A DNA stretch of 30,798 nucleotides from a virus: positions 1 to 30,798 of IMG/VR virus record IMGVR_UViG_3300009443_000021. One strand, written 5' to 3'. The position numbers and the translations under genes were made by a program. Positions within the stretch are counted from its first letter, which is position 1. The number at the start of each line of letters is the position of its first letter. Shown here piece by piece: positions 1 to 20,866 of the stretch. The notes below the pieces were generated by a model that was given only the letters and a program-made list of their open reading frames with translations, made no database searches and was not told the origin of the DNA.

Positions 1-918
1 AGAAAACTCGTATCCATCTTCGGGGTCAGCTTCAAGCGCTATTTGTTCTCCTACGGTAGCTGTAGATTCACTTGCGGTTTCAGTTCCGTTATCACCATTA
101 ACTGTTATGTCATACTCTATCGCGGTGTAAACTGCAGTAACGGTTACATTTCTAGGCGGCATAACAAAAGAACCTTGATTAACCTCAATAGGCGCTACAT
201 CAAACTCCCATCCATCAAAAGAATATCCAATTTTTTGATCCTCAAGTAGTGATATGCTGTCCCCCATTCTAAAAGGCCCGCCGTTAGTAACCGATCCAGA
301 ATTTACCGTAACACTGTATTCTGCCAATTTATAAGTCGCCTTAATTTTTACATCTTCTGCAGGCATTGTAAATTGACCATTTTCTACAATCGCCGCTCCT
401 TCTAGAACTTCCCATTTGTCAAAATCATAACCAGTTTTAGGAAATGCCCCCAACCGAACTTGATCATTAACATGGTATTCATCTCCACTCCCAGTCTCGT
501 TTCCATTACCGTCATTTTCTATTATGACCTTATAATTAATGGGTAAATAATTAGCCGTAATTTGCAAATTTCTAGAAGGCATAACAAAAGAATCGTTGGT
601 TACCACTAATTCATCAAAATCACTAGTCCATCCATCAAAATTATAACCAGGATTTGCCGACTGACTCAATAATACTTCTTGGTTAAAAGCATAAATTCCT
701 CCTCCAGACTGCTGTCCATTTTCACCAACAATAATAACTTCATAAGGAATTAAGCTGTATTTACCTATTACCTCAACATCTTCAGCAGGCATGGTGAATT
801 TGTTTTCTTTTATAGTCACATCGCCTTTAATTACCTCCCATGAATCAAACTGATGCCCTTCCTTATTTAAAGGTTTTAGCTCAACTATTCTTCCGTCTAT
901 ATGCTCAAAGTTTCTCAT
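1..918 (-). CDS. Tail-tip or fibre adhesin with InlB-type repeats (3' end off the window)
   Basis: The frame is open from ATG 918 to the left edge, giving 306 residues with no stop; the C-terminus lies outside. The start overlaps the stop of the upstream 360-residue gene as ATGA. The protein is almost wholly tandem repeats of about 70 residues. Each has a Gly-Tyr/His-x-Phe-Asp-x-Trp core, then an F-x-MP-x-x-(N/D)-V/L strand ending in A-x-Y or G-x-Y. The core tryptophans are at residues 27, 97, 169 and 237, and a fifth unit begins near the edge. This is the pattern of the divergent InlB B-repeat / Listeria-Bacteroides repeat family, small beta-rich modules used as stalks in surface adhesins. 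Position just after the tape measure and a tube-like paralogue fits a tail-tip or host-contact protein. The assignment to the tail is inference from gene order; the receptor-binding end is not in the window. Confidence 0.75.
   Translation of the reverse strand, partial: MRNFEHIDGRIVELKPLNKEGHQFDSWEVIKGDVTIKENKFTMPAEDVEVIGKYSLIPYEVIIVGENGQQSGGGIYAFNQEVLLSQSANPGYNFDGWTSDFDELVVTNDSFVMPSRNLQITANYLPINYKVIIENDGNGNETGSGDEYHVNDQVRLGAFPKTGYDFDKWEVLEGAAIVENGQFTMPAEDVKIKATYKLAEYSVTVNSGSVTNGGPFRMGDSISLLEDQKIGYSFDGWEFDVAPIEVNQGSFVMPPRNVTVTAVYTAIEYDITVNGDNGTETASESTATVGEQIALEADPEDGYEFS
1..918 (-). repeat. Tandem ~70-residue InlB-like protein repeats
   Basis: Four complete repeat cores are centred on codons at nt 838-840, 628-630, 412-414 and 208-210, spaced 210, 216 and 204 nt. 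The repeats are visible in the protein but the DNA has diverged, so they are old duplications. Confidence 0.8.
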
Positions 919-7900: not shown

Positions 7901-10900
7901 TGATGACTTAGCCTTTTTTAGTTCGCCCAACCTTGTTTGGTCGCCTTTGGAAAGCTTACCTGTTTTTTCTGTTATGGAATTTATTTGCGCCTCTGTTCTT
8001 TCCAGTTTTTCATTTAATAAATCCTTGATTCCCTCAAAGTCTTTGGAAATATCAAAGCTAGCTATCTCGGCTAATGTCTCTTTGCCTTCCTTACCAAACT
8101 GGCTGGCTATTTTTGAAAACTCACTAAAGCTATCGGTGAAAGCCTTAGACATTTCAGACAATTCATTTTTAGCATTATTTAAAATTGCGTCTGGAATTTG
8201 TGGGCTAGCAAAGTTTGGAACCATACCCTTGCTCGCTCCATGCTTCTTTGGGTCTATACCCATAGTCTTGGCGCGCCTTATTCCCTGCTGTACTCCGGCC
8301 GGCTCATCTCTAGTATTAGTTACCGCAAGCCCCATCGGGTTTTGAGCACTTTTTAATTGAGAGCTTTTCTCTACCCTAATTCTGGCCTGAGGAACTCCTG
8401 CTGCTCGCTCTCTTGATATCGCCGCACTTAATGGATCTGCAAAATTAGGAACAAGACCCTCTGCGTTACCACTGCCTCGTCCAGCATGCTGTCCAGAAAA
8501 TTTATACAATTGGCCCATTAAGTTTTTATTACCTAAAGCCTTAATTGCTGCAATATTCTCAGGAGCATCGTCTATTAAATTGTATCGCCCTCCATTCTTC
8601 TTCTGCATGTTTTGAAGGATTGTGGCTTTTTTTTGCGCGGAAGTCTGGCCGTTCTGGATGCTTCCAGTTGTTATGATTCTGCCAGAATTTATACCCCAAG
8701 ACTTCAGTTTCTTGCTAATAAAAGGTTTTGATTCTCCAGCTCTTGCGGTGAGAATATCAAGGGTTCTACCTTTTAATGATTTAGCTAGATCAGTTGGCTC
8801 CGCAAGCGCGGCCGATTCTGCATTAAACAAATCAGCGGAAGTCACGCTACTAGGATAGGTAGCTAAAGTCTCGTCAAAGTCATAAAAAGTTTTTGCAAAA
8901 TTAGGCACAAAACCTCTTGCCGCGCTTAAATCCTTGTTGCCGTAATATTCTCCCTCTCCTGCCTGTTTTTTGTATTTCTTGAGGATTTTTGTTTTGTCGA
9001 TTGATTTTAAATTCTCGTAACCGGGAAGTTGAAGCTTCTCTCTTGTTTGAGCTACTGCGTTGATTGCGTTTTTTATATCCTCATCGCTTGGCTGAGTTTC
9101 TGGGGTTTTTCCTATTGGGATATCTAGATGCCTACTTATTTGAGCTGAGGTGATGTTGGCGGGAGATGGTGGCTTGTTAAATTTTATTCCCTTGTTCGAT
9201 GGGTCGGCCAATGTGTCCTGTATTTTTTGGCTGCGAGTTCTTGGGTCTGCGAAGTTTGGTATTAATCCGCCCGAAACATTTGCCGATGTAAGATTTTCTA
9301 ATTCTTTAACTTTTATTCCTGTTTTTGTTCTTTTGTCTATTGCTCCTAGATCTACATCATCTACAACATAATTAAAAGATATTATTTTTTTATCTAACTG
9401 TTTTTTTAATTGTAGTTTTTCGTTTTCTTCCTTTGTGGGTTTTTTTTTGTCTTTGGGTTTGAATTCTGACAATTCATCATATGTGTAACCATGATTAGCC
9501 ATTATGGATTCATTTATTGCTTTTCTTGCTTTTGGCTTTAACCCCCTAGGTTTCATAAGGTCTTTAATAGTAATTTTGGCAGGCTTGCTACTGTCCGACC
9601 CATTGTTCACTATATCGGGAAATTCATCACCCGGTAGATCCACTTGATCTTTTGAAAGTAGGCGCGCTAGTAATCCTTCACTGTGTACTTCCCTTATAAT
9701 CTTATCCCTCATTAATGGTATTTTATGCCCTGCTCCCGCATGAGCATCGCCATAAGTTGCTGCATCTTCTAAACCTATATCTTCCGCAGTCTTTTTGGGA
9801 ACCCGAAGAAGCCTACCTCTCTCTCTAGAAAAGTCCATGGCGTCTGGGTTTGTCTCAAACTTGACACCACCAAGATCCGATAATATTTCTTCAAATATTC
9901 TCCCCCTTTTTTGACTATTGCCTAGAAGCTTAGCTTTATCTGCGGCCCCGCCCGGAAGACCTAATAATAGTTCCTGAAAGTCTGCAAAATCTGTGGGACT
10001 TAACTGCTTTTCTGCAGCGTTTCTTGATGTTGATTTTTTATTACTCGTAACAAGCTGCTCAACGATTGTTTCAAGTCTGTTTGTTTTCTTGGCCAGATCA
10101 GCTCTGTTTTTATATTTTCCAGCTCTTAAGTTTTTCAAAATGTCTGGATAAGAAGTTTGCCCTTTCCTTGTAGTTGTTGCTGTTTTTTGATCTTTTATTT
10201 CTTGTATTTCTTGTTCGCTCAAATCTCTTTTTACGTTTTTCTGACCTAATGAAACACCTAAGTTGCTCACACCGTAAGCTTTATTAATTTCCTCAGTAGT
10301 ATTAAAAATTTTACCTTTGTTTCTTTTGTAACGATCTTCCCAGGATTCTTTAGCAAAATTAGGAACCAAACCTTCAGACATCCTATGGGCCAGCAAAGCT
10401 TGATGAGTCTGCCCAGAACTAGCATCCTTACCTATTAAGCCTTTTTTGGTTAATAGATTTGCGCCCTTTTTAAATTTTTCATTTCTAGCTTCGTTAATCA
10501 TTTCCTGGGTAGCCCCTTGGCTTTCTGCAAAACGCATCAATCCGTCATCGCTATAAAGACGCAAGCTTTTTAACAGTACATTTGGAAGCTTCCATTCTCC
10601 AGATTTAACTTCGATTGGATTCATACCTAACCCAACCAAATCAACAGGAAAAGTTGGATCGCCCGACCTTCCTCCAGTATTAAAATATTTCCCACCCTCG
10701 TCTTCTAGTACATCCGCTTCAGCTTGATCGGCCGTTTTTTTGCCCCTTTTGGGTAGTTTCTTTAACTTGAACTTACGCTCTATGCTTTGGACTCCACCCT
10801 CGTCCTGCAGGTACCTTATAACCTCTTTGACTTTTTTGGAATGGCTTCCCCCTGTATTTGACAAAAGTTGCTTTGTTGTAGCCTCCACGCTGATTGGCTG

Positions 10901-12961
10901 GCCGGTTGCTTCTAGCTCTGCATAGCTTTTAGCCAAATTTCTAGGGCCTTTAACTTTTCCAGGATTAGCGCTCAACTGAGTCAACGAAGGATCGAGCATT
11001 AATTTACCACCATTCATTGTTGCAAAATTGGGAACAAATCCGCCGCTAGCATATGGATCAAATCCGTGCTGACCAGCAAAAGCATCTTTGTATCCCTTTC
11101 CCGCCCTGCTCTCTTTTGGGGGCATGATTGCAGGCTGACTCATTCCAGGGAATTGCTTAACCTTTTCGGCTTTATTGTAAACAACAGTGCCGACCCCTTT
11201 TACGTTCATTGAGTCTATAGCTCCTGCGGCATAACCGCCCTGAGCGGCCCCTTGTCTTTCTTTCTTCTTAGAGGATTCGGGTATCATTCCTGATGCCGCA
11301 ACTGGAACCATTCCAGATGCTTCATTTTTTGAAAAATCAGGATTAATTCCAGCCCTAACCAATGGCTTGGCTAGCCTCGCAGCAAGATTAACCTGCTCGC
11401 TCATTGCGCTGTTTTGTTTTTCTATTATTCCTAATATAAACATTTCTTGAGCTTTTCTGTCGTCTTCTAGATTGCTTAGCCCTTCTTGTAGTTTTACATT
11501 TTCACCAAGAGCCTTAAGTATAGATTCCTCCATTGCCCTTATTTTATCTTTCTCATTGACTATGCCCAGAACATCCTTTAACGAGGTTCTAGCAAACTTA
11601 GCAATATTAACAAAGAGTTTTATAAAGATGGCCCCAAAAGCTATAGCTGCAGGCCCAGTTATTACATTACCTATGCCTTTAACTAATCCCTTCGCAAAAG
11701 TGCTACCCTCGTCTTCTCCTCCTCCTAGCGTGTTTTTTATGCCATCAATTCCGTCTTTTATAGACGACAAAAAGAAATCAATATCGGGAGCCAAACCAAT
11801 TGTCCCAAGTATCTCCGCAAGCTCCTGGATAGATGTGGTTGTTTGTGATGCCATTGCTGACATCGTTTTGTTTAGCATTTCATTCTTTTGCGCTGCATCG
11901 CCAGCTGCATTTCCTGCTATTTCAGTAGCCTGGGCTTGAATGCTTTGCTCCTTACCTAAGTCCCTTAACGCTGCTCTAAAAACATTGGCTTGAAATATTC
12001 CTGCTGAAAATTGAACAATATTGGATTGTTGCGACTGGCTTAAGTTATCGAACGATTTAGCCATGTTTATCATAATCTTATCTGCAGGCAATATGGATCC
12101 AGATAAATTCTTAACAGCGATACCTATTTCTTCTAGTTGTCTTATTGATTCAGGCCTCTGTATTCTTGTGAAAATTGTTTTTAATCCATTACCAATAACG
12201 GCTCCACCTCGAGCAGTTGTTTGTTGCAGCGCCGTTACCAAACCAATTAAACTGTCAATTTCAACACCTGCGTCAATCGCAACAGCCCCAGTTCGTTCTA
12301 AAGCTTTAATTAAATCCTCGGAGCTTACTGCGAATTTAACGTCAACAGCTGCCAATTTATCAATAATATCTGTGGTTGAAAGTCCAGCATCTCCAAAAGC
12401 ATTAACGGCTGCGGTTAAACCAGACACGGCTGAAGCCGCGTCCAGCCCAGTTAATCGAGTTAAAATTAAAGCATCATTAGTTCTTTTTAAAGTCTCCTCC
12501 ATAGTAAGACCTTGCCTGGAAAACTCAAGAGCAGCTTCGGCGGAAACCGTAAAAGCTTGAGCCGTATTTCTTGCTACGTCAAATAGTCCATCACCAAATT
12601 CTTGCAGTTTTCCCGCAGAAGCTCCAACAATAACATTTATATCTTGTAAGACCTTTTCAAACTTTACGGTTTCTACGACTAAAGCCTTAAAGGCTTCAGA
12701 TATTCCGTTAATTATTCCTACAGAAGCACCAAAAGCAATAACCCGAGCATTGGATGCCTCTAGTGATTTTGTAAATTCATTCGCGGATGCGGTTATTCTT
12801 CCAAGAGGCTGAGTAAAGCTTTTTCCATTAACATTGAATGAAATTTGCTTTTTACTTACTCCATTTATGGATCTATTTATCTCCGCAGCAGCGCGGTCCA
12901 TACTTCTCTTTGCCTTAGAAGTATTAACGTTAAGCGTTACATCTGCCCTCATTCCTACCAT
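1997..12961 (-). CDS. Giant tail tape measure protein with embedded enzyme-like modules
   Basis: This 3654-residue protein is expected to occupy the tail lumen, set tail length and be released on infection. Residues about 1-420 look like the TP901/lambda-type tape measure core, including the G-x-x-L-K-T-I-F-T-R-I segment after a T-T-A-R-G-G turn. Hydrophobic segments lie near 430-458, 1887-1917 and 3309-3343. Residues about 560-1600 form a separate region with six G-(F/L/M)-(V/I)-P-N-F-A motifs (ends at 647, 870, 1238, 1356, 1508, 1585) bounding discrete modules. These include a PD-(D/E)XK-like domain and a HAD-like domain. Residues about 1600-3100 are long, charged and helical/coiled coil. 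The C-terminus has G-x-I-Q-H-F and P-A-M-L-T-A-G-E motifs common in tape measure C-termini. Start: ATG 12961 has AAGG five bases upstream; an in-frame ATG at codon 4 has a poorer gap. No muralytic domain was recognised. Confidence 0.9.
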   Translation of the reverse strand: MVGMRADVTLNVNTSKAKRSMDRAAAEINRSINGVSKKQISFNVNGKSFTQPLGRITASANEFTKSLEASNARVIAFGASVGIINGISEAFKALVVETVKFEKVLQDINVIVGASAGKLQEFGDGLFDVARNTAQAFTVSAEAALEFSRQGLTMEETLKRTNDALILTRLTGLDAASAVSGLTAAVNAFGDAGLSTTDIIDKLAAVDVKFAVSSEDLIKALERTGAVAIDAGVEIDSLIGLVTALQQTTARGGAVIGNGLKTIFTRIQRPESIRQLEEIGIAVKNLSGSILPADKIMINMAKSFDNLSQSQQSNIVQFSAGIFQANVFRAALRDLGKEQSIQAQATEIAGNAAGDAAQKNEMLNKTMSAMASQTTTSIQELAEILGTIGLAPDIDFFLSSIKDGIDGIKNTLGGGEDEGSTFAKGLVKGIGNVITGPAAIAFGAIFIKLFVNIAKFARTSLKDVLGIVNEKDKIRAMEESILKALGENVKLQEGLSNLEDDRKAQEMFILGIIEKQNSAMSEQVNLAARLAKPLVRAGINPDFSKNEASGMVPVAASGMIPESSKKKERQGAAQGGYAAGAIDSMNVKGVGTVVYNKAEKVKQFPGMSQPAIMPPKESRAGKGYKDAFAGQHGFDPYASGGFVPNFATMNGGKLMLDPSLTQLSANPGKVKGPRNLAKSYAELEATGQPISVEATTKQLLSNTGGSHSKKVKEVIRYLQDEGGVQSIERKFKLKKLPKRGKKTADQAEADVLEDEGGKYFNTGGRSGDPTFPVDLVGLGMNPIEVKSGEWKLPNVLLKSLRLYSDDGLMRFAESQGATQEMINEARNEKFKKGANLLTKKGLIGKDASSGQTHQALLAHRMSEGLVPNFAKESWEDRYKRNKGKIFNTTEEINKAYGVSNLGVSLGQKNVKRDLSEQEIQEIKDQKTATTTRKGQTSYPDILKNLRAGKYKNRADLAKKTNRLETIVEQLVTSNKKSTSRNAAEKQLSPTDFADFQELLLGLPGGAADKAKLLGNSQKRGRIFEEILSDLGGVKFETNPDAMDFSRERGRLLRVPKKTAEDIGLEDAATYGDAHAGAGHKIPLMRDKIIREVHSEGLLARLLSKDQVDLPGDEFPDIVNNGSDSSKPAKITIKDLMKPRGLKPKARKAINESIMANHGYTYDELSEFKPKDKKKPTKEENEKLQLKKQLDKKIISFNYVVDDVDLGAIDKRTKTGIKVKELENLTSANVSGGLIPNFADPRTRSQKIQDTLADPSNKGIKFNKPPSPANITSAQISRHLDIPIGKTPETQPSDEDIKNAINAVAQTREKLQLPGYENLKSIDKTKILKKYKKQAGEGEYYGNKDLSAARGFVPNFAKTFYDFDETLATYPSSVTSADLFNAESAALAEPTDLAKSLKGRTLDILTARAGESKPFISKKLKSWGINSGRIITTGSIQNGQTSAQKKATILQNMQKKNGGRYNLIDDAPENIAAIKALGNKNLMGQLYKFSGQHAGRGSGNAEGLVPNFADPLSAAISRERAAGVPQARIRVEKSSQLKSAQNPMGLAVTNTRDEPAGVQQGIRRAKTMGIDPKKHGASKGMVPNFASPQIPDAILNNAKNELSEMSKAFTDSFSEFSKIASQFGKEGKETLAEIASFDISKDFEGIKDLLNEKLERTEAQINSITEKTGKLSKGDQTRLGELKKAKSSGEALLKSTEEKSQKSKAVKNLSSSEPEAQKAQLIKSENAMIKKMLTARGTDLKSLKEATKASQDFRIALDESAKSAEESEDDGGGLQRLFYLQSAISLVNGQFETLAEGASGLTKTFAQGMLAISNVTASYIQQKELVSEGMNMAGVKRNESFSIGQAFNPEARAARRSAAAASDAGSRGSGVGRMGGLMRNLSGVGKMFGRFLPVIGQLYTGFTVVNEAFKMFNIGEMFGLEKGSGVMDLLSSQGERAAKKLEKLGESTEKLQGALESLNSQTENREKVTDLEILGSRRTQKQELELQQLKLKGLDIDIKAQDALSGLLDENLVGTKVSKRFIEELSKGTNSNEDYVKVIERVIKAQKNQAAFLSGSKSFGDLIDKKLDKFNPDSDDIKLLQGASKVRGSQIGMGFSSAAAGGDDMDVKDRLSILNKNIAALERESSTVSFRSMSDVTKLTDRLAKNLQGTEDFDAEMMASQINSFIKNIDESIDNTSGLDPRETKAVNAGMKQMVIQLNKLKKNLEGESDRQQEAQLKKEYVTAYKNIIFNIEQFRKNEAHLTKLSLASLAHQNKLNSSQQSLLLEYGAIGKQAAISSDFARKRNAMEAKFSSDKQGVEMKTIESLNKLRDTYFNTDQLAQQFKKDGQAAAGAVQALKENIEKGVSAADFAGIGKSMNLNPEVMAKVTEAFEQTSAETKNATSSLEVISSLLNKFGKATDSSTASALLLALHEKKLVTITDEHLNLLKSGLLDRERQLEYLNTGNKEAQQLLKLEEEHKFIKEKTVAGAAKLYKILQARGREEKDVLESVKGEAATLAVLNDFYKKDVSILAKSSEAMELGFQKQVEKNRTDAISAVHSLRMLEAQTGSLKGLENSLIILEAKLKSETENAKLALQESNFRLEYLSDQSKRSELVKRQLAKEMSDLQTSNLLAAEKNLQLSKTGELRQLVEEQLNATLHSSRLEALTAAENALLLTGKTKQVKLIQEANELQEASNKLTELQNAVTKAGVSDKTLRMTTTADIGIEKANSILGTRTAGMKATVEPNADNMLAYANSLEQTNKLLGNGSRAIDRFRARMAEMNVEAENLGADLVNIGIDNARSGLTQMFKDIGSGAKSASEAWADFGLGLANELLDRLMQNNVDKIIKNLTFAFTGESGESDAIKIAKETAHLVGINEGIISSNKDLTSAVRSASEALRNKIQLSRSPDEQVDDFIAPNAGKTPDTFTNVQENAAKIQTDLETSNKMDLEVSSFIENLYKTITPLNQLATAATEATKASMIQGPVRPKDLFEAQDKMQAFKDDQPLLSTARTQRGSESSFDHFLKGPQNKYEVKREEIEKQRKDLISNKYAEEKKAEKIKTKISEMGEPETRAESKEQKRLQSELEKTNQEFDKFSKQLKESDQTLASLDSEYDTATKKLASLSAVVENLAGRLNVSNEPPAKLTRDGQMDVVALLNKHSGGKIQHFAKGGFVDGPAGVDKVPAMLTAGEYVVPKDKVSQLKQAGGMIQHFRDGTGSKGAQKQEDSGTKEKKEKSRFQSGMEGIANLVVMNEVSRAVADSLDGKTDSPPTFDENKFKNLDLRSDVNIKRGDPRLSSKFLSRDPAMQQYKDFLLEKAAYDVQKKNEKFEKRKATLATVVGAVQSMAIAGVTAIAAPFIQGAVTGLENTYGRYAPTDSAKAYRAARAQDPKLNVNYRDVKNSMKNNKPLVVGESSYFPARTKEGGFTWDKARVSNGKMQGPEQYPSHRFPAFNEDAAREKILGKKVVKKASGGSVPAMLTAGEGFIPEKTAKRIGYENLNTMNKTGNLPTVQGAPGIDQVGPVGLTEGDFIIKKNSTDKLLRENPSMMKFALQNPEGFKKGERGYYEGGVVGNSSPATVAPPAKPRSTNRIQQQNPAEMLNSIAAPKTQSPQAETQGKTSDVTNNINVNVTIDQSGQEKVSSDSSGGSYEEEQNLSLKIKTAVLDVIRQEKRIGGELN
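2510..3530 (-). repeat. C-terminal GG-x-V...PAMLTAGE motif repeats in the tape measure
   Basis: One full copy begins at residue 3148 (nt 3520 leftwards) with G-G-F-V, followed by V-P-A-M-L-T-A-G-E-Y-V-V-P. A second shortened copy begins at residue 3448 (nt 2620) as G-G-S-V-P-A-M-L-T-A-G-E-G-F-I-P. A third, degenerate copy follows about 45 residues later and ends L-T-E-G-D-F-I-I-K. A related I-Q-H-F pair flanks the first copy. Such motifs recur near tape measure C-termini in many siphophages; their function is unknown to me. Confidence 0.6.
8207..8437 (-). other. Short unrecognised module (77 residues) between PNFA motifs 5 and 6
   Basis: Residues 1509-1585 form the smallest interval. It starts D-P-L-S-A-A-I-S-R-E-R, contains an N-P-M-G-L-A-V-T-N-T-R-D-E-P strand, and then a basic Q-G-I-R-R-A helix ending K-K-H-G before the motif. 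It has no family I can name. Its compactness suggests a complete small alpha/beta fold. Confidence 0.5.
8477..8893 (-). other. HAD phosphatase-like domain inside the tape measure protein
   Basis: Residues 1357-1495 follow directly after the fourth PNFA motif and end before the fifth. All HAD motifs are visible in order: motif I D1361-F-D1363-E-T1365, motif II L-T1405-A-R, motif III lysine K1444 or K1445, and motif IV D1464-D1465 followed by A-P-E-N. The spacing is normal for a compact HAD domain. HAD enzymes of this type act on phosphomonoesters, including nucleotides and nucleic acid ends; the substrate here is not known. Presence of the catalytic residues argues that it is active and not a structural relic. 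Confidence 0.75.
9248..10351 (-). other. Unrecognised large module (368 residues) between PNFA motifs 2 and 3
   Basis: Residues 871-1238 include a basic N-terminal helical part, a segment with R-G-R-I-F-E-E-I-L followed by L-G-G-V-K-F (near residue 1017), a Y-G-D-A-H-A-G-A-G-H stretch (near 1070), and a Lys/Glu-rich C-terminal part. The R-I-F-E-E start followed by a strand resembles the first helix of some PD-(D/E)XK nucleases, but I cannot complete the motif, so no function is assigned. There may be two domains here. Confidence 0.4.
10382..10714 (-). other. PD-(D/E)XK nuclease-like domain inside the tape measure protein
   Basis: Residues about 750-860, between PNFA motifs 1 and 2. The segment P-V-D774-L-V-G-L-G-M-N-P-I-E784-V-K786 has the D...E-x-K arrangement on two predicted strands, with acidic residues in the helix before it (near 750) and a helix after it. 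This is the signature of the PD-(D/E)XK nuclease fold (restriction endonuclease-like, Holliday junction resolvase-like). It is supported only by the motif and local pattern; structure prediction would decide. Confidence 0.55.
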
Positions 12962-13032: not shown

Positions 13033-14409
13033 CTATTGATCCACAACAAGCGAGCCGTCCCCAAGTTGCAGTATGCTCTGCTGCTCCATTGCTAGATAAT
13101 AGTCCTCAAAAGATCCACTCATAAAGAATCCGTTATTGGGGCTTACCCCGAAACTAAAACTACAATCCACCGTAGCTATTGAACCTATAGATTCGCTAAA
13201 AGAATAACTCTCAAATCTAGCGTTATTAATAATGTACTTGATATATGACTCATGCTCAGAAGATGCGGAGCAAAAATAATCGCAATGATTATTTAAGCTA
13301 ATTTCTATCTTGTAATCTTCATCTTGGCAGAATATTTTCCTAAAATCCCCACTGTTAAAAGCGCTAGCGAGCAAAGAAAATGATATACTTCCAATTTGTG
13401 GGTACTTCATTTTTCTTCCGTAAACATGCATTGACTCAAAGCCGTACAAATCTTCCCTCGCAAACGGTAGGTTGATGTTAAAGCTTTGTATGTTTGCGGA
13501 ACCCTCTATGCATGTCCCTTCATTCTTTCCTGAAAGTATCGGCCCACCCACATTAAGGTTTCTTAAATTAACATTAATGCCTCCAGGAGCAATTGCCGCA
13601 ACGGGAGATTTGTACATTTTGGGATTAAATTCAATACCAGTACCTAGGGCTATTTCCCCTCCATGTCTTTCTATTTTTGGCCCAGTTAAATCCGCTCCTT
13701 TATTCGCTAAGTCTAATGATGGATTCTGAACCCCAGCTTTGTAGAATTTTTGCTCACTTGACCCGAGTCCAATATTCTGACCATTCTGCAGTTCAATAAA
13801 TGCATTTAATTGAGTTAAAAGTACAGCTACTTCGTTTACATTGTCTAGCCAGTAGTGGCCACCGTAGCCGGAACCATTACAGGAATGCCTTAAATTTGAA
13901 GCGGCGTAAGAAACTGAGGCTTTAGGAAACTCTCCAACACCGGCCGATATAGAATAATCAGTTATGTAACAATTACCTATGCCTATGACATCTATGCCCG
14001 AGTAATGATTATTCCTATTCTCATATCCAGTCAAATCAAAAGGCTCTGCCCCAACAGCCATCAATATAGTCTTATCTTCCTTTAAATCGTAATAAGCGCT
14101 TTTACCTTGAGATGATGGCATTTCCTGCCCCTTGCTAAGAATATTCAACCCAAGAAGATTCTCTTCGTATCCGTCTGTAAGCAGATACTCCAAACTTAAT
14201 TTAGTGCTTAGCTCTGAAACTACTTTTCTATCTAGAAAATCTTCACTCCCGATGTGTTGTATGTCCTGCCTGCCTACATCAACAGAAACACTTGCTGATT
14301 GAACCCTATTGAAAAAATATAATACATCAGCGCCAGGTTTAGCTGCCGGAGAATCAGTTAGGAATATTCCGACTGAATTGTATTTGATTGCATTTCTTTT
14401 ACCGGACAT
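13033..14409 (-). CDS. Tail tube paralogue (second tube-like protein)
   Basis: This 458-residue protein is clearly related to the 720-residue tube protein just upstream. Shared blocks in order: a Q-(S/T)-A strand then G/S-R-Q-D; Y-L-L-x-D-G-Y-(E/N)-E; G-N-x-Y-(I/L)-T-D-Y-S with V-G-x-(F/I)-P-x-A-S-V; S-A-x-(I/V)-Q-S-x-x-I-N-(L/V)-P-x-A-R; A-R-x-E-S-x-x-F with S-I-G or T-I-G; and N-G-x-F-(M/I)-S-G near the end. It lacks the tandem-repeat insertion of its neighbour. The start at ATG 14409 has no Shine-Dalgarno and lies seven bases from a hairpin, so translation may be weak, which would fit a minor tube or tail-tip-proximal subunit. The role as a structural tail protein is well supported; the exact place in the tail is inferred. 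Confidence 0.7.
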   Translation of the reverse strand: MSGKRNAIKYNSVGIFLTDSPAAKPGADVLYFFNRVQSASVSVDVGRQDIQHIGSEDFLDRKVVSELSTKLSLEYLLTDGYEENLLGLNILSKGQEMPSSQGKSAYYDLKEDKTILMAVGAEPFDLTGYENRNNHYSGIDVIGIGNCYITDYSISAGVGEFPKASVSYAASNLRHSCNGSGYGGHYWLDNVNEVAVLLTQLNAFIELQNGQNIGLGSSEQKFYKAGVQNPSLDLANKGADLTGPKIERHGGEIALGTGIEFNPKMYKSPVAAIAPGGINVNLRNLNVGGPILSGKNEGTCIEGSANIQSFNINLPFAREDLYGFESMHVYGRKMKYPQIGSISFSLLASAFNSGDFRKIFCQDEDYKIEISLNNHCDYFCSASSEHESYIKYIINNARFESYSFSESIGSIATVDCSFSFGVSPNNGFFMSGSFEDYYLAMEQQSILQLGDGSLVVDQ

Positions 14410-14471: not shown

Positions 14472-16634
14472 TTATGCTCTGTACCCCATGAGTTCGTTCG
14501 CTGCTGGAATATTTTCAACACCTCCGACTCCGGTCCATGCTGGTGGTAATCCAAGATTACCTTCAGCAGCTTCTTTTCCAGAAATAAACAATCCGTTATC
14601 AGGATCATCTGCTCCTGCGATCTGAGCGATAAAGGTTAAGTCTACTGACTTGTTGTCTCCGATAGTGCTTGTGAAGTTTTCGGATTCAAGACGTGCTCCT
14701 TTTAATTCGAAAATCATAGCAACAGGTCCATCTTTTGTGTCACACTCAACACACTCAGGATCCATCATCTTGACTGTTGCATTGATTCTATCGCAACCAC
14801 AAAGTAAGTCGGCCATGTTGCCCTCCTTAAGGTCTGAAAGTGTAGCACTAACTGACATTGTTATATTGATTGGCACATCAAGAGTTTTAGAGAACCCAAA
14901 AGTAGAACCAAGTCGTTGAAGAGTTGTTCTAGCCATAGGAACATTAATACTAACAGATTGAACGTGCGCGCTTCCAACAGTTGGAGTAGAAACATTCAAA
15001 CCACTAACCTGTTTAGAGATTAAACCTGCGCCTTGAAGATCAAGAATAACATCTCCTGGCCTAAGTGCTGCCACATCGCCACATCCTGCATAACCACTTT
15101 CTGCAGCTGGAAGAGAATACAATCCAGTACATCCATTCTCTTTTGCAATTCTTTCTCCTGCAGCATTCTTGCCCCACGCATTACTCATAAAGCTTCCGTC
15201 GGTCATTTTGATTGCTGGCAAGTCGTTTCCGGTTTCGCCAATATCACTCTTGATATTCATTCCCTCAACTGTAACGCTTGCTGTGGGAATTGCTCCCACA
15301 GATATATCAACGCTATAGTCGGTAAGATAACCGTTTCCTAAAGAAATAACAGACTTTTTATCATCATTACCTGCTGCGTTTTCGTTAACGTCTCCGTTTA
15401 CTGCGTCTCCAGCTTCTGGCATTGTCAAGATAAAGAAGTTACTTCCTGCTTGATAAAGTTCAGGTGAAAATCCTCCGCTCAAAGCATTGGTTGTACCATT
15501 TGTAATGAACTCAATCATTCGTTCATTGTATCCATCTAAAAGATAATAACTGAAGTCTAAATTAACAGTAGGAGCTTCAATAACTACAGAATCAAGACGT
15601 GACAAATGACCGAATTGATTAACGTCTTGCCTACTGATGGTGAAACCATAGTTTGCAGTTTGAATACGCTTTAGTTGCTTGATGATTGTTCCGTGACTTT
15701 TCGCATAACTAACTCCATCAAACCCACCAGCGGTAACGCCAGTGGAAATTTCTGGAGAGTCGGCTCCTGCAGAAGCAATAGTACCAACAGTAGCTGCGTC
15801 TGTACCATTACCACTTAGAGTGGCAGTAAACCCACCAGCTGAAAGTAGTGCTGCTGTACCACCCGCACTCGCAAGCGTAGCAAGAACATCATTAACAGTT
15901 GCGCCACCGCTAATATCAGCTGCTATAGTAAGAGTTCCGGCAGCAAAGTTCGCGCTTGATACAGCATTATCAACAACTTCAAAATTAATTCCATTTTTTG
16001 TAGCTCCTTTATCTTGAGCTGTGAAAGTAATACCATTTCGCGTTGCAGTTGCAAGTGGATCAGCCCCTTTGGCAACACTAAATCCTCCAGCGCTAGAAAG
16101 AGCGTTTACTCCGTCTGGAGTGGCAAAAATAGCAAGAAGTTCGTCGTAAGTTACTCCGGCTCCAAAATCAGCCCCTACAGTTAAAGTTGTACCAGCAAAG
16201 GCTACAGTGCTTACTGTTGCTTGCGTAAGTGCTAGCGTTATTCCGTCGTAACTGTCGCCTGTTCGGTCTGCTTCAAAAACTATCTCTCCGATAGCGTTGG
16301 CTCCATTAATTGAAACTTTAGATTTTACTCCAGCTGTTCCAGCTTCGCCTTTTCCGTTCCATTGTGGCCACGTATCACCTGGCAACCATCCAACCACTTC
16401 ATTCCGTTTGTTCTTGGCTGGAGCTGCTGCTGTGCCACCAAATACTTGCCGGCTCCCCGTCGGAGGAGTCATTAGTCCAAATGGACCGTCTCCAATTGTT
16501 GAGCTTATTGAAGCGTAGTCTGCTGGCACTTCTGCGTTAGATATAGCGGAACCAGTAAAGTGGTATCCTGTTGAATCTGGGCTCACAAATAAAGCCTCTG
16601 ATTGATAAATTACTCGATTTCTATGTACTGCCAT
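14472..16634 (-). CDS. Major tail tube protein with inserted tandem repeats
   Basis: A 720-residue protein placed between the tail completion genes and the tape measure gene, where phages keep the major tail protein. The strong AGGAG site at 16644-16648 is the best in this region, as expected of an abundant virion protein. Residues about 1-115 are an N-terminal part, 116-275 an insertion of two repeats of about 85 residues ending in S-A-G-G-F, and 320-690 the tube-like core shared with the 458-residue paralogue. The core has S-R-Q-D-V near 334, G-N-G-Y-L-T-D-Y near 433, V-P-M-A-R near 565, and N-G-L-F-I-S-G near 680. Four cysteines lie as C612-x-C614 and C628-x-x-C631. It is far longer than usual tube proteins (150-450 residues); the insertion may decorate the tail surface. 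A sheath role is less likely because no separate tube gene of typical form is seen. Confidence 0.65.
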   Translation of the reverse strand: MAVHRNRVIYQSEALFVSPDSTGYHFTGSAISNAEVPADYASISSTIGDGPFGLMTPPTGSRQVFGGTAAAPAKNKRNEVVGWLPGDTWPQWNGKGEAGTAGVKSKVSINGANAIGEIVFEADRTGDSYDGITLALTQATVSTVAFAGTTLTVGADFGAGVTYDELLAIFATPDGVNALSSAGGFSVAKGADPLATATRNGITFTAQDKGATKNGINFEVVDNAVSSANFAAGTLTIAADISGGATVNDVLATLASAGGTAALLSAGGFTATLSGNGTDAATVGTIASAGADSPEISTGVTAGGFDGVSYAKSHGTIIKQLKRIQTANYGFTISRQDVNQFGHLSRLDSVVIEAPTVNLDFSYYLLDGYNERMIEFITNGTTNALSGGFSPELYQAGSNFFILTMPEAGDAVNGDVNENAAGNDDKKSVISLGNGYLTDYSVDISVGAIPTASVTVEGMNIKSDIGETGNDLPAIKMTDGSFMSNAWGKNAAGERIAKENGCTGLYSLPAAESGYAGCGDVAALRPGDVILDLQGAGLISKQVSGLNVSTPTVGSAHVQSVSINVPMARTTLQRLGSTFGFSKTLDVPINITMSVSATLSDLKEGNMADLLCGCDRINATVKMMDPECVECDTKDGPVAMIFELKGARLESENFTSTIGDNKSVDLTFIAQIAGADDPDNGLFISGKEAAEGNLGLPPAWTGVGGVENIPAANELMGYRA
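15810..16289 (-). repeat. Two ~85-residue tandem repeats in the tail tube protein
   Basis: Residues about 116-190 and 201-275 align as G-x-I-x-F-x-A-x-x-x-G, then G-I-(T/N)-(L/F), then G-T-x-L-T-(V/I)-x-A-D, then a D-(E/V)-L-A helix ending L-S-S/L-S-A-G-G-F. The DNA copies are diverged. They look like surface-exposed beta/alpha modules. Confidence 0.7.
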
Positions 16635-19117: not shown

Positions 19118-19882
19118 ATGAGCAAAAAAACAATCTACAAGTTTACTGTCAATAAAGAAGAAGAAGTTGAAGAACAAGAAGTTTCCGAAATCGTAAACAA
19201 AGAAACTAAAGAAAAAGAAAAAGTTACAAAGACTAAGACTGTAAAAAAACCAGTACAGCATACAATTAGAATCGCCTCCCCCTCACGCAGACAGGTGGAA
19301 GACGCGGACATGGAGTTCAGCATCGAAATGAGCAAGTGTATTAAAAAAGGCATTCTTACAAAAGCTATGCTTGCAAAAAAATACAGCGATAGCGGAGGAT
19401 TACTCTCAGAAGAAGACTCAACAGAACTAATACGCCTTTACAGGGAACTTACCGAAGTTCAAAACGATCTTGGCCGCTCAATGAACAAGAAAAACAAAAA
19501 CGACAAAGAAGCCAAAAAAGAAGAAGAACTAACCGAATCTTTTGCGGCTATCAGAAAGCGTATTGTTGATCTTGAGACAAGCTATCAAAACGTATTCAAT
19601 CATACAGCAGATACTAAAGCTCAAAACAAAACCATACTATGGTACATGCTTAATCTTTCTCATGTTACCGCTCCAGGCGAGGAAGAAGCCCCTTTGTTTG
19701 CTGGAAAAACCATCGAGGAAAAAGAAGAATCTTACTATGAGCTTGACGAAAACGAAGACGAAGTTTTTGACTTGGCTCGAGAAAAACTTATGACCTTTAT
19801 TAGTTTTTGGTATTTTAGCCAAAACGCATCCGAGGAAGATTTCTCCAATCTTGAGAAAGATATCGATTCTGGCGAACTCTAA
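19118..19882 (+). CDS. Possible tail assembly chaperone, first ORF of an in-frame pair
   Basis: A 254-residue acidic protein. Residues 10-50 are Glu/Lys-rich and disordered in appearance, 60-130 are helical (S-K-C-I-K-K-G-I-L-T-K region), and 140-254 are helical and acidic. It ends at TAA 19880-19882, after which the same frame stays open for 327 more codons. A shorter ORF followed by an extension, in the middle of head-tail genes, is the layout of lambda G/GT-type chaperones, which elsewhere is made by frameshifting. Here no shift is needed. The chaperone label rests on layout only; sequence similarity is not visible by eye. No Shine-Dalgarno precedes ATG 19118. Confidence 0.4.
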   Translation: MSKKTIYKFTVNKEEEVEEQEVSEIVNKETKEKEKVTKTKTVKKPVQHTIRIASPSRRQVEDADMEFSIEMSKCIKKGILTKAMLAKKYSDSGGLLSEEDSTELIRLYRELTEVQNDLGRSMNKKNKNDKEAKKEEELTESFAAIRKRIVDLETSYQNVFNHTADTKAQNKTILWYMLNLSHVTAPGEEEAPLFAGKTIEEKEESYYELDENEDEVFDLAREKLMTFISFWYFSQNASEEDFSNLEKDIDSGEL

Positions 19883-19885
19883 TGG

Positions 19886-20866
19886 GTGGACTTAAAGGAG
19901 CATAGAAGACTATTCAAAGAAATAGTTGATGGATTCTCTGCCTATTATGTGGGTGAAGAAAAAAGATATATAAAACATCAATGCGTTTCAGATCTTGTTG
20001 ATTTTGATCAAGTTTACCAAATGCACTTTGATCGCGCCAAAGCAAGAGGGCTCCCCACTGAAGAGGAAATATTTGCCGACCTAGAAGAGCAAGGCATCTG
20101 GTCCAAGTCAGACGATTCAGAAATAGAGACTCAAAAGTTTTATGTCCAAAGCTTGATAAAAAATAAAAAAAACTTGGTACTGAAAAGCGCCACGGACAGA
20201 ATAAACAAACAAATAAAAGAAGCCCAGGAGAAGTTGAGTAACCTAGCCAAACAGAAGGCGGACCTCATAACAAACTCCTGCGACAACTACGCCCTCAACA
20301 GAGCTAATGACTTTTATATGTTTAATAGTTTCTATAAAACTCAAGATCTAGACGAGCCCCTGTATACTCAAGAAGAATTCGAAAATACAAGCACACAAGA
20401 AGTTACCGCCCTAGTAAGAATATACAATAGCTTTCATGAAAAATTTTCAGAAAAAAACATACAGCACCTAGCTGTACAAGATTTTTATAAAATATATTAC
20501 TCGTTTTCGGAAAGCACCATGGATTTCTTTGGCGTACCAGTAGTCAAGTTAAATAACTTCCAACTTAATCTTTTAATATACACTAGAATATTTAAAAATA
20601 TATTTGAAATGAATGAAGATATTCCAGATAAGATAAAAAAAGACCCAGAAGCATTACTTGATTACGCGAACTCTTCAGAGGCAAGAGATGAAATAAAAAG
20701 TAAGATGAACAACTCATCATCAGCTTCAACAATTGTCGGAGCCACAAAAGAAGACCTAGAAGAACTAGGAATGAATACCCCCCAGAAAGATGGACTTCAT
20801 GAAGCAGCAAAGAAAAAAGGCGGATCACTCTCAATGAAAGATTTGATGGATATGGGTGGAGTTTAG
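19886..20866 (+). CDS. Possible tail assembly chaperone extension, second ORF of the pair
   Basis: The ORF is in the same frame as the preceding one, separated only by TAA and one sense codon (TGG). The first start codon is GTG 19886, without a Shine-Dalgarno, so translation would need reinitiation after the TAA or readthrough of it; a later internal start is also possible. The 326-residue product is helical, with a coiled-coil stretch near residues 95-130 and a C-terminal Lys/Gly-rich tail ending M-D-M-G-G-V. No family is recognised. If readthrough occurs, a 581-residue fusion would be made. The stop may instead be a sequencing error; read evidence would decide. Confidence 0.5.
   Translation: MDLKEHRRLFKEIVDGFSAYYVGEEKRYIKHQCVSDLVDFDQVYQMHFDRAKARGLPTEEEIFADLEEQGIWSKSDDSEIETQKFYVQSLIKNKKNLVLKSATDRINKQIKEAQEKLSNLAKQKADLITNSCDNYALNRANDFYMFNSFYKTQDLDEPLYTQEEFENTSTQEVTALVRIYNSFHEKFSEKNIQHLAVQDFYKIYYSFSESTMDFFGVPVVKLNNFQLNLLIYTRIFKNIFEMNEDIPDKIKKDPEALLDYANSSEARDEIKSKMNNSSSASTIVGATKEDLEELGMNTPQKDGLHEAAKKKGGSLSMKDLMDMGGV

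Follow-up and report, generated by a model that had tools for sequence, protein, structure and literature searches.

A tape-measure protein (TMP, the ruler of tail length) of an uncultured tailed phage probably carries a cargo array, in which fixed caps enclose exchangeable modules, a short peptide motif forms the joints, and the enzymes among the modules are delivered into the host. The layout begins with a constant N-terminal TMP domain. Next come the invariable opening module (C1), exchangeable modules in varying number, an invariable closing module (C0 or C2), and finally the tape, with each module border marked by (A/S)xG(F/L/Y)(I/V)PNF(A/S). Such an array suggests that the phage delivers enzymes to its host in modular form, alongside its DNA.

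The window, meaning the whole stretch of DNA analyzed here (IMGVR_UViG_3300009443_000021; 30,798 nt, 30.8 kb), is a piece of the phage genome with terminase-, portal-, capsid-, and tail-type genes, all identified by eye except the TMP gene. The TMP gene is very long and lies within this structural operon, together with tube-like genes. Its product matches TIGR01760 (E 1.3e-27, 96.7 bits against a curated cut-off of 28.8) and PF10145 (E 7.7e-23, 81.8 bits against a curated cut-off of 33.2), and the dN/dS of its N-terminal domain is near 0.1. A comparable set of structural genes is present in the related contig L264. Three seemingly related tail-tube-type proteins flank the TMP (positions 915-1997, 13033-14409, and 14472-16634, all on the minus strand), and the 720-aa member of the three has a tandem-repeated insert at aa ~130-300. 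Another protein of the tail operon (1-918, minus strand) contains InlB-type repeats of the form GYxFDGWxxxxxxVxxxxFVMPxxxVxVxAxY.

The original prediction that six motif copies divide the TMP into intervals of 77-368 residues was borne out. Six in-frame copies of G(F/L/M)(V/I)PNFA span aa 641-1585, with copy-to-copy distances of 223, 368, 118, 152, and 77 aa, where 2.7e-5 copies would be expected in random sequence of matching composition; no copy occurs in the other ~2,070 aa. A degenerate copy, SGMIPESS, occurs at aa 557-564, where relatives read GFIPNFA, and a conserved 75-aa end module follows it directly, so the array begins earlier than copy 1. The consensus over 339 copies is (A)(A/S)xG(F/L/Y)(I/V)PNF(A/S), about 10 residues with a hydrophobic, uncharged F-(I/V)-P-N-F core, and information drops to background right outside it on both sides. 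Because the tally demanded G and PNF, their invariance is built in; A/S at position -2, F/L/Y, and the closing A stand out even though the tally left these positions free. Most loci were recovered through the motif itself, and its frequency is thus a biased estimate. A G-Q-(T)-H element proposed to precede three of the copies did not hold up: SGQTH in the window corresponds to SEQTH in L002 and L016, and the 339 copies show no comparable element upstream of position -3.

Codons of the motif vary between copies in the window, and codon use in the window's clade is indistinguishable from background (p 0.08-0.36), so conservation acts at the protein level, as had been claimed. In the clade spanning L185-L263, motif codons are biased relative to the background of the same genes (GGA 69%, CCT 75%, p down to 4e-12 in a phylogenetically related sample), possibly through gene conversion between copies. 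The original prediction had set against modularity a motif embedded in one continuous fold. On this point, two structure models give weak evidence: the one for the window array has a mean pLDDT of 46 and the one for a minimal array 54, and both place all motif copies in low-confidence loop. Searches of PDB and viral folds with these low-confidence models returned no usable match.

Table 1. Features of the TMP gene and its module array in the window
Feature	Position in TMP	Position in window	Strand	Basis
TMP gene	3,654 aa	1997..12961	-	TIGR01760, PF10145, and several PHROG TMP families
TP901-type TMP N-terminal domain	aa 86-412	11726..12706	-	Profile match
Fixed first module C1, after SGMIPESS	aa 565-640	11042..11269	-	Homologous to C1 in 23 arrays
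Motif copy 1, GFVPNFA	aa 641	11041-11021	-	Sequence
Module 1 (cluster C5), putative PD-(D/E)XK nuclease		10373..11020	-	Residue motif
Motif copy 2, GLVPNFA	aa 864	10372-10352	-	Sequence
Module 2 (cluster C7), fast-evolving		9269..10351	-	G..FE..D..DAHAGxGH; dN/dS
Motif copy 3, GLIPNFA	aa 1232	9268-9248	-	Sequence
Module 3 (cluster C10), no assigned family		8915..9247	-	Also in L001, L002, L016, L081
Motif copy 4, GFVPNFA	aa 1350	8914-8894	-	Sequence
Module 4, HAD-superfamily phosphatase		8459..8893	-	DFDET ... LTAR ... LIDDAPEN
Motif copy 5, GLVPNFA	aa 1502	8458-8438	-	Sequence
Fixed last module C0	70 aa	8228..8437	-	Cluster of 44 modules
Motif copy 6, GMVPNFA	aa 1579	8227-8207	-	Sequence
Tape after array	~2070 aa	1997..8206	-	Length compared among close relatives

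Comparisons of close relatives give good support, at the level of sequence, to a rack of exchangeable modules that come and go, substitute for one another, and change order at the motif. This agrees with the original prediction of interchangeable domains between fixed linkers and runs counter to the fixed module order that it had named as the opposing outcome. When the N-terminal TMP domain was used alone as the query, six further contigs were retrieved, and the array was present in all of them (6/6). Although the N-terminal domains of the window, L001, L002, and L003/L016 share 98-99% identity, their arrays differ. After C1, the order is C5-C7-C10-HAD-C0 in the window and C5-C7-C10-C32-C14-C0 in L002; L016 has both the HAD module and C32-C14, and L001 has additional modules. 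The DNA of L016 follows that of the window until the fifth motif is complete; over the next two modules the sequences have no relation, and the match resumes at a later motif. Between L002 and L016, the HAD module is a clean insertion that brings its own motif copy. Clusters C5, C10, C13, C14, C19, and C33 are common to L001 and L081 and occur in a different order.

At 51 junctions shared on their left side, residue identity is ~0.5 before the motif and ~0.07 beyond it; 140 junctions show the reverse step. Because modules had been cut at the motif beforehand in this comparison, DNA breakpoints were mapped again without knowledge of the motif. Of 232 ungapped DNA-homology ends, 43% are no more than 24 nt from a motif edge, compared with 12% of random positions; the associated p value (1e-31) is indicative only because the compared pairs are related and their breakpoints phylogenetically non-independent. 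Within the window's clade, the tape that follows the array is nearly constant in length (2010-2166 aa) while the array spans 677-1286 aa, a pattern that fits a passenger and not a part of the ruler.

The proposed search for the motif across phages revealed a large family in uncultured viruses. A scan of IMG/VR with one codon version of the motif identified at least 120 stretches, and at least 71 ORFs carry two or more copies; a reversed control pattern had zero matches in 50 of the motif-bearing contigs. With a minimal-array profile, which picked the motif itself as the most conserved peptide, at least 481 encoding places were identified in IMG/VR (481 of 599 among the matches listed). For comparison, 72 arrays were collected; their 297 modules fall into 91 clusters, of which 47 are singletons. 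Arrays mostly start at aa 538-640, and their usual length is about 430 aa, or three modules, ranging up to about 1,680 aa; L150 is unusual, with an array of 3,534 aa and additional motif copies close to its C-terminus. A second array or extra copies occur 760-940 aa beyond the first array in L150, L159, and L147, giving nine or ten copies per TMP. The minimal array consists of C1 or C8 (~75 aa), a putative nuclease module (~200-300 aa), and C0 or C2 (~70 aa), and longer arrays have extra cargo inserted between these caps. Motif copies also border the fixed end modules, and across arrays the distance from copy to copy varies irregularly, from about 50 to >900 aa.

No array was found in 50,697 cultured-phage records at the sensitivities used. 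The genome collection yielded two matches, both in Flavobacteriales MAGs, and the larger lies on a phage contig of 77 kb that also has a tail-tip block of the lambda-like K-I-J type. The hosts are likely Flavobacteriales. About 790 genomes sampled from the order and phylum of the MAG include no other array, so these phages are not common prophages. Several candidates were rejected: a PNFA-bearing tail-fibre-like protein in G034 (L161) and a weak match in a Yersinia phage were chance matches, and many ORFs of ~515 aa with a single GLVPNFA from the DNA scan were unrelated single matches.

The original prediction that at least two modules in the window are enzymes, a nuclease and a phosphatase, is borne out for the phosphatase, and the nuclease stands as a motif-level call. 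Module 4 has the residues of the HAD pattern DxDx(T/V), T/S, K, DD (DFDET, LTAR, KK, and LIDD) and matches the polynucleotide kinase family phrog_415, with E values of 9e-4 for the window and 3.7e-5 for L001. It is present in L016 and L001, missing in L002, and under strong purifying selection (dN/dS 0.03-0.09). Module 1 has D127/E137xK139 invariant in 10 relatives and a dN/dS of 0.135 against L016. Module 2 evolves faster (dN/dS ~0.7-1.2), which is compatible with diversifying or relaxed selection, and its conserved DAHAGxGH sits at the expected (D/E)xK position; it is possibly a diverged PD-(D/E)XK-like domain that lacks the catalytic Lys.

A putative PD-(D/E)XK module is common among the arrays. 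The core module of minimal arrays keeps D...(D/E)xK in all aligned members (alignment A6), as does module 1 (alignment A1); in alignment A8, members were picked by regular expression and invariant residues are partly built in. Profile and fold searches returned no confirming match for the PD-(D/E)XK fold with either module 1 (C5) or the core module, and PDB profile-search matches for both were spurious, so the assignment remains at the motif level. A profile-profile comparison of C5 with the core nuclease family found no match, and homology between the two is therefore not claimed. Matches exceeding curated Pfam cut-offs identified SNase modules in L004, L131, and L166 (the L131 module also matches solved thermonucleases, E 2e-4), GNAT modules in L145 and L164, a PcfJ module in L146, and HIGH_NTase1_ass (nucleotidyltransferase) modules in L171 and L183. 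A GHKL ATPase-like module in L054 falls slightly under the Pfam cut-off. Assignments by sequence motif only include an ART-like module (L002 module 4), a kinase-like module (L001 module 5), and zincin plus HAD modules in L145 and L164; the ART-like and kinase-like modules had no match in PDB. HExxH occurs in 4 modules from two distinct families, compared with 0.3 in shuffles. Most modules have no detectable family in Pfam and profile searches, and PADLOC returned nothing meaningful.

TMP ejection and proteolysis have been documented in other siphophages, DT57C/T5 and JBD30; ejected TMPs may form a membrane channel, and a T5-like TMP is proteolytically processed (PMC10713586, PMC11445458). From the behavior of these proteins, we infer that array modules are injected as well. 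Because a TMP leaves the virion before the DNA, the modules would reach the host at the first moments of infection, where nucleases, a HAD phosphatase, acetyltransferases, probable ADP-ribosyltransferases, and kinases could act in takeover or counter-defence. Whole in-frame modules can be added, removed, or rearranged without disturbing their neighbors because the motif is short and has no detectable fold of its own. Counting against delivery, folded modules in three copies do not obviously fit a tail lumen of ~4 nm, so that delivery requires the modules to unfold, to sit close to the head, or to be processed beforehand.

We favor recognition of the motif by one trans-acting partner, and the favored partner would be a peptidase that frees modules from the membrane-inserted tape after ejection. 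For an enzyme held mid-tape in a membrane, cleavage at its borders would be the simplest logic of release, and such a peptidase is a serious contender as the motif reader, although short of probable. The contigs of five relatives, those followed far enough, encode a lambda-K-like JAMM peptidase; this gene is general to such tails, which counts against a motif-specific role, and no motif-specific protease was identified. Cleavage before ejection is opposed by the fact that cutting every copy would sever the tape. The fuller scenario, in which the motif is the cleavage site of a phage or virion peptidase and a string of unrelated enzymes is threaded through the tail within the tape, freed singly, and exchanged as cassettes to match host defences, is unlikely. 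Docking is almost as likely as release by cleavage and would itself be a somewhat unlikely explanation: here the motif binds a common partner (a tail chaperone, C1/C0, the neck, or the tube wall) and packs the array while the modules stay covalently joined. The ~10 conserved residues with their hydrophobic, uncharged core and the presence of the motif around fixed end modules are as expected for docking, as are two probable chaperone genes conserved in the window, which in L167 immediately precede the TMP. These genes (254 and 326 aa; 19118-20866, plus strand, opposite to the TMP) probably encode tail-assembly chaperones and are candidate motif partners. The irregular spacing of the motif is unlike that of a periodic tube wall, however, and no docking partner was identified.

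If the modules served the TMP as structural spacers and the motif were a plain flexible linker, a convenient joint inherited and duplicated together with each module, then its low-confidence loops in both models and the many modules lacking a recognizable enzyme family would be expected. This is improbable given a motif sharply bounded over 339 copies with random flanks (G and PNF having been demanded by the tally and the other positions not), modules that retain active sites and exceed Pfam cut-offs, and the constraint on the HAD module. Less probable still is a motif kept mainly as a DNA recombination joint, providing short homology for module shuffling. The coincidence of DNA breakpoints with the motif and the codon bias of the L185-L263 clade point in that direction, whereas copies in the window's clade vary at third positions with no codon bias, and amino-acid conservation reaches the A/S at -2.

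In a large group of uncultured phages, the tail ruler appears to double as a carrier that can be extended by means of a standard joint. Since this joint lets the cargo be listed from sequence alone, it offers a way to mine for new enzymes of early infection and for counter-defence proteins. It also poses a sharp, testable question about TMP processing, which is documented and poorly understood, namely what reads the motif. Virion-delivered enzymes are known singly or in head proteins. A literature search, with subscription journals and preprints outside its reach, found no paper that pairs "tape measure protein" with the motif or describes such modules.

Known TMPs carry one or two cell-wall enzymes, and some have a muralytic or peptidase domain. 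The array-bearing proteins resemble TP901-type TMPs (TIGR01760/PF10145; SPbeta YomI; T5 pb2) in their N-terminal domain and tail-operon position and differ in having up to about ten bordered modules of nucleic-acid- and protein-modifying types. Polymorphic toxin systems join exchangeable effector domains to a fixed delivery part, and the arrays are similar in effector exchange and in the dN/dS near 1 of C7. In contrast to these toxins, the modules are in tandem, exchange occurs mid-protein, and the vehicle is a phage virion instead of a secretion system; no immunity gene lies beside the array, which is internal to the TMP and followed by a gene for a tube-like protein. T4 Alt and MuF-fused effectors are likewise virion-carried, injected enzymes, but they are head proteins with one or few effectors and no motif-bordered array (PMC5512222). 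In content, the arrays resemble polyvalent proteins (Iyer et al. 2017, PMC5512222), in which many disparate enzyme domains occur in one polypeptide predicted to be injected, and for which polypeptide processing has been proposed. Several domains are likewise combined here, PD-(D/E)XK-like and HAD in the window and SNase, GNAT, PcfJ, nucleotidyltransferase, and GHKL-like in relatives. Enzyme classes appear to overlap (ART, kinase, GNAT, zincin, and nucleotidyltransferase); among families from the founding paper, GNAT was identified by Pfam and the ART-, kinase-, and zincin-like modules by motif only. The term "tape measure" is absent from that paper (PMC5512222), and the arrays differ in having a TMP as carrier, a single short border motif, and exchange at the motif. 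On these sequence features, we read the array as a tape-measure-borne analogue of polyvalent proteins with a standard border motif.
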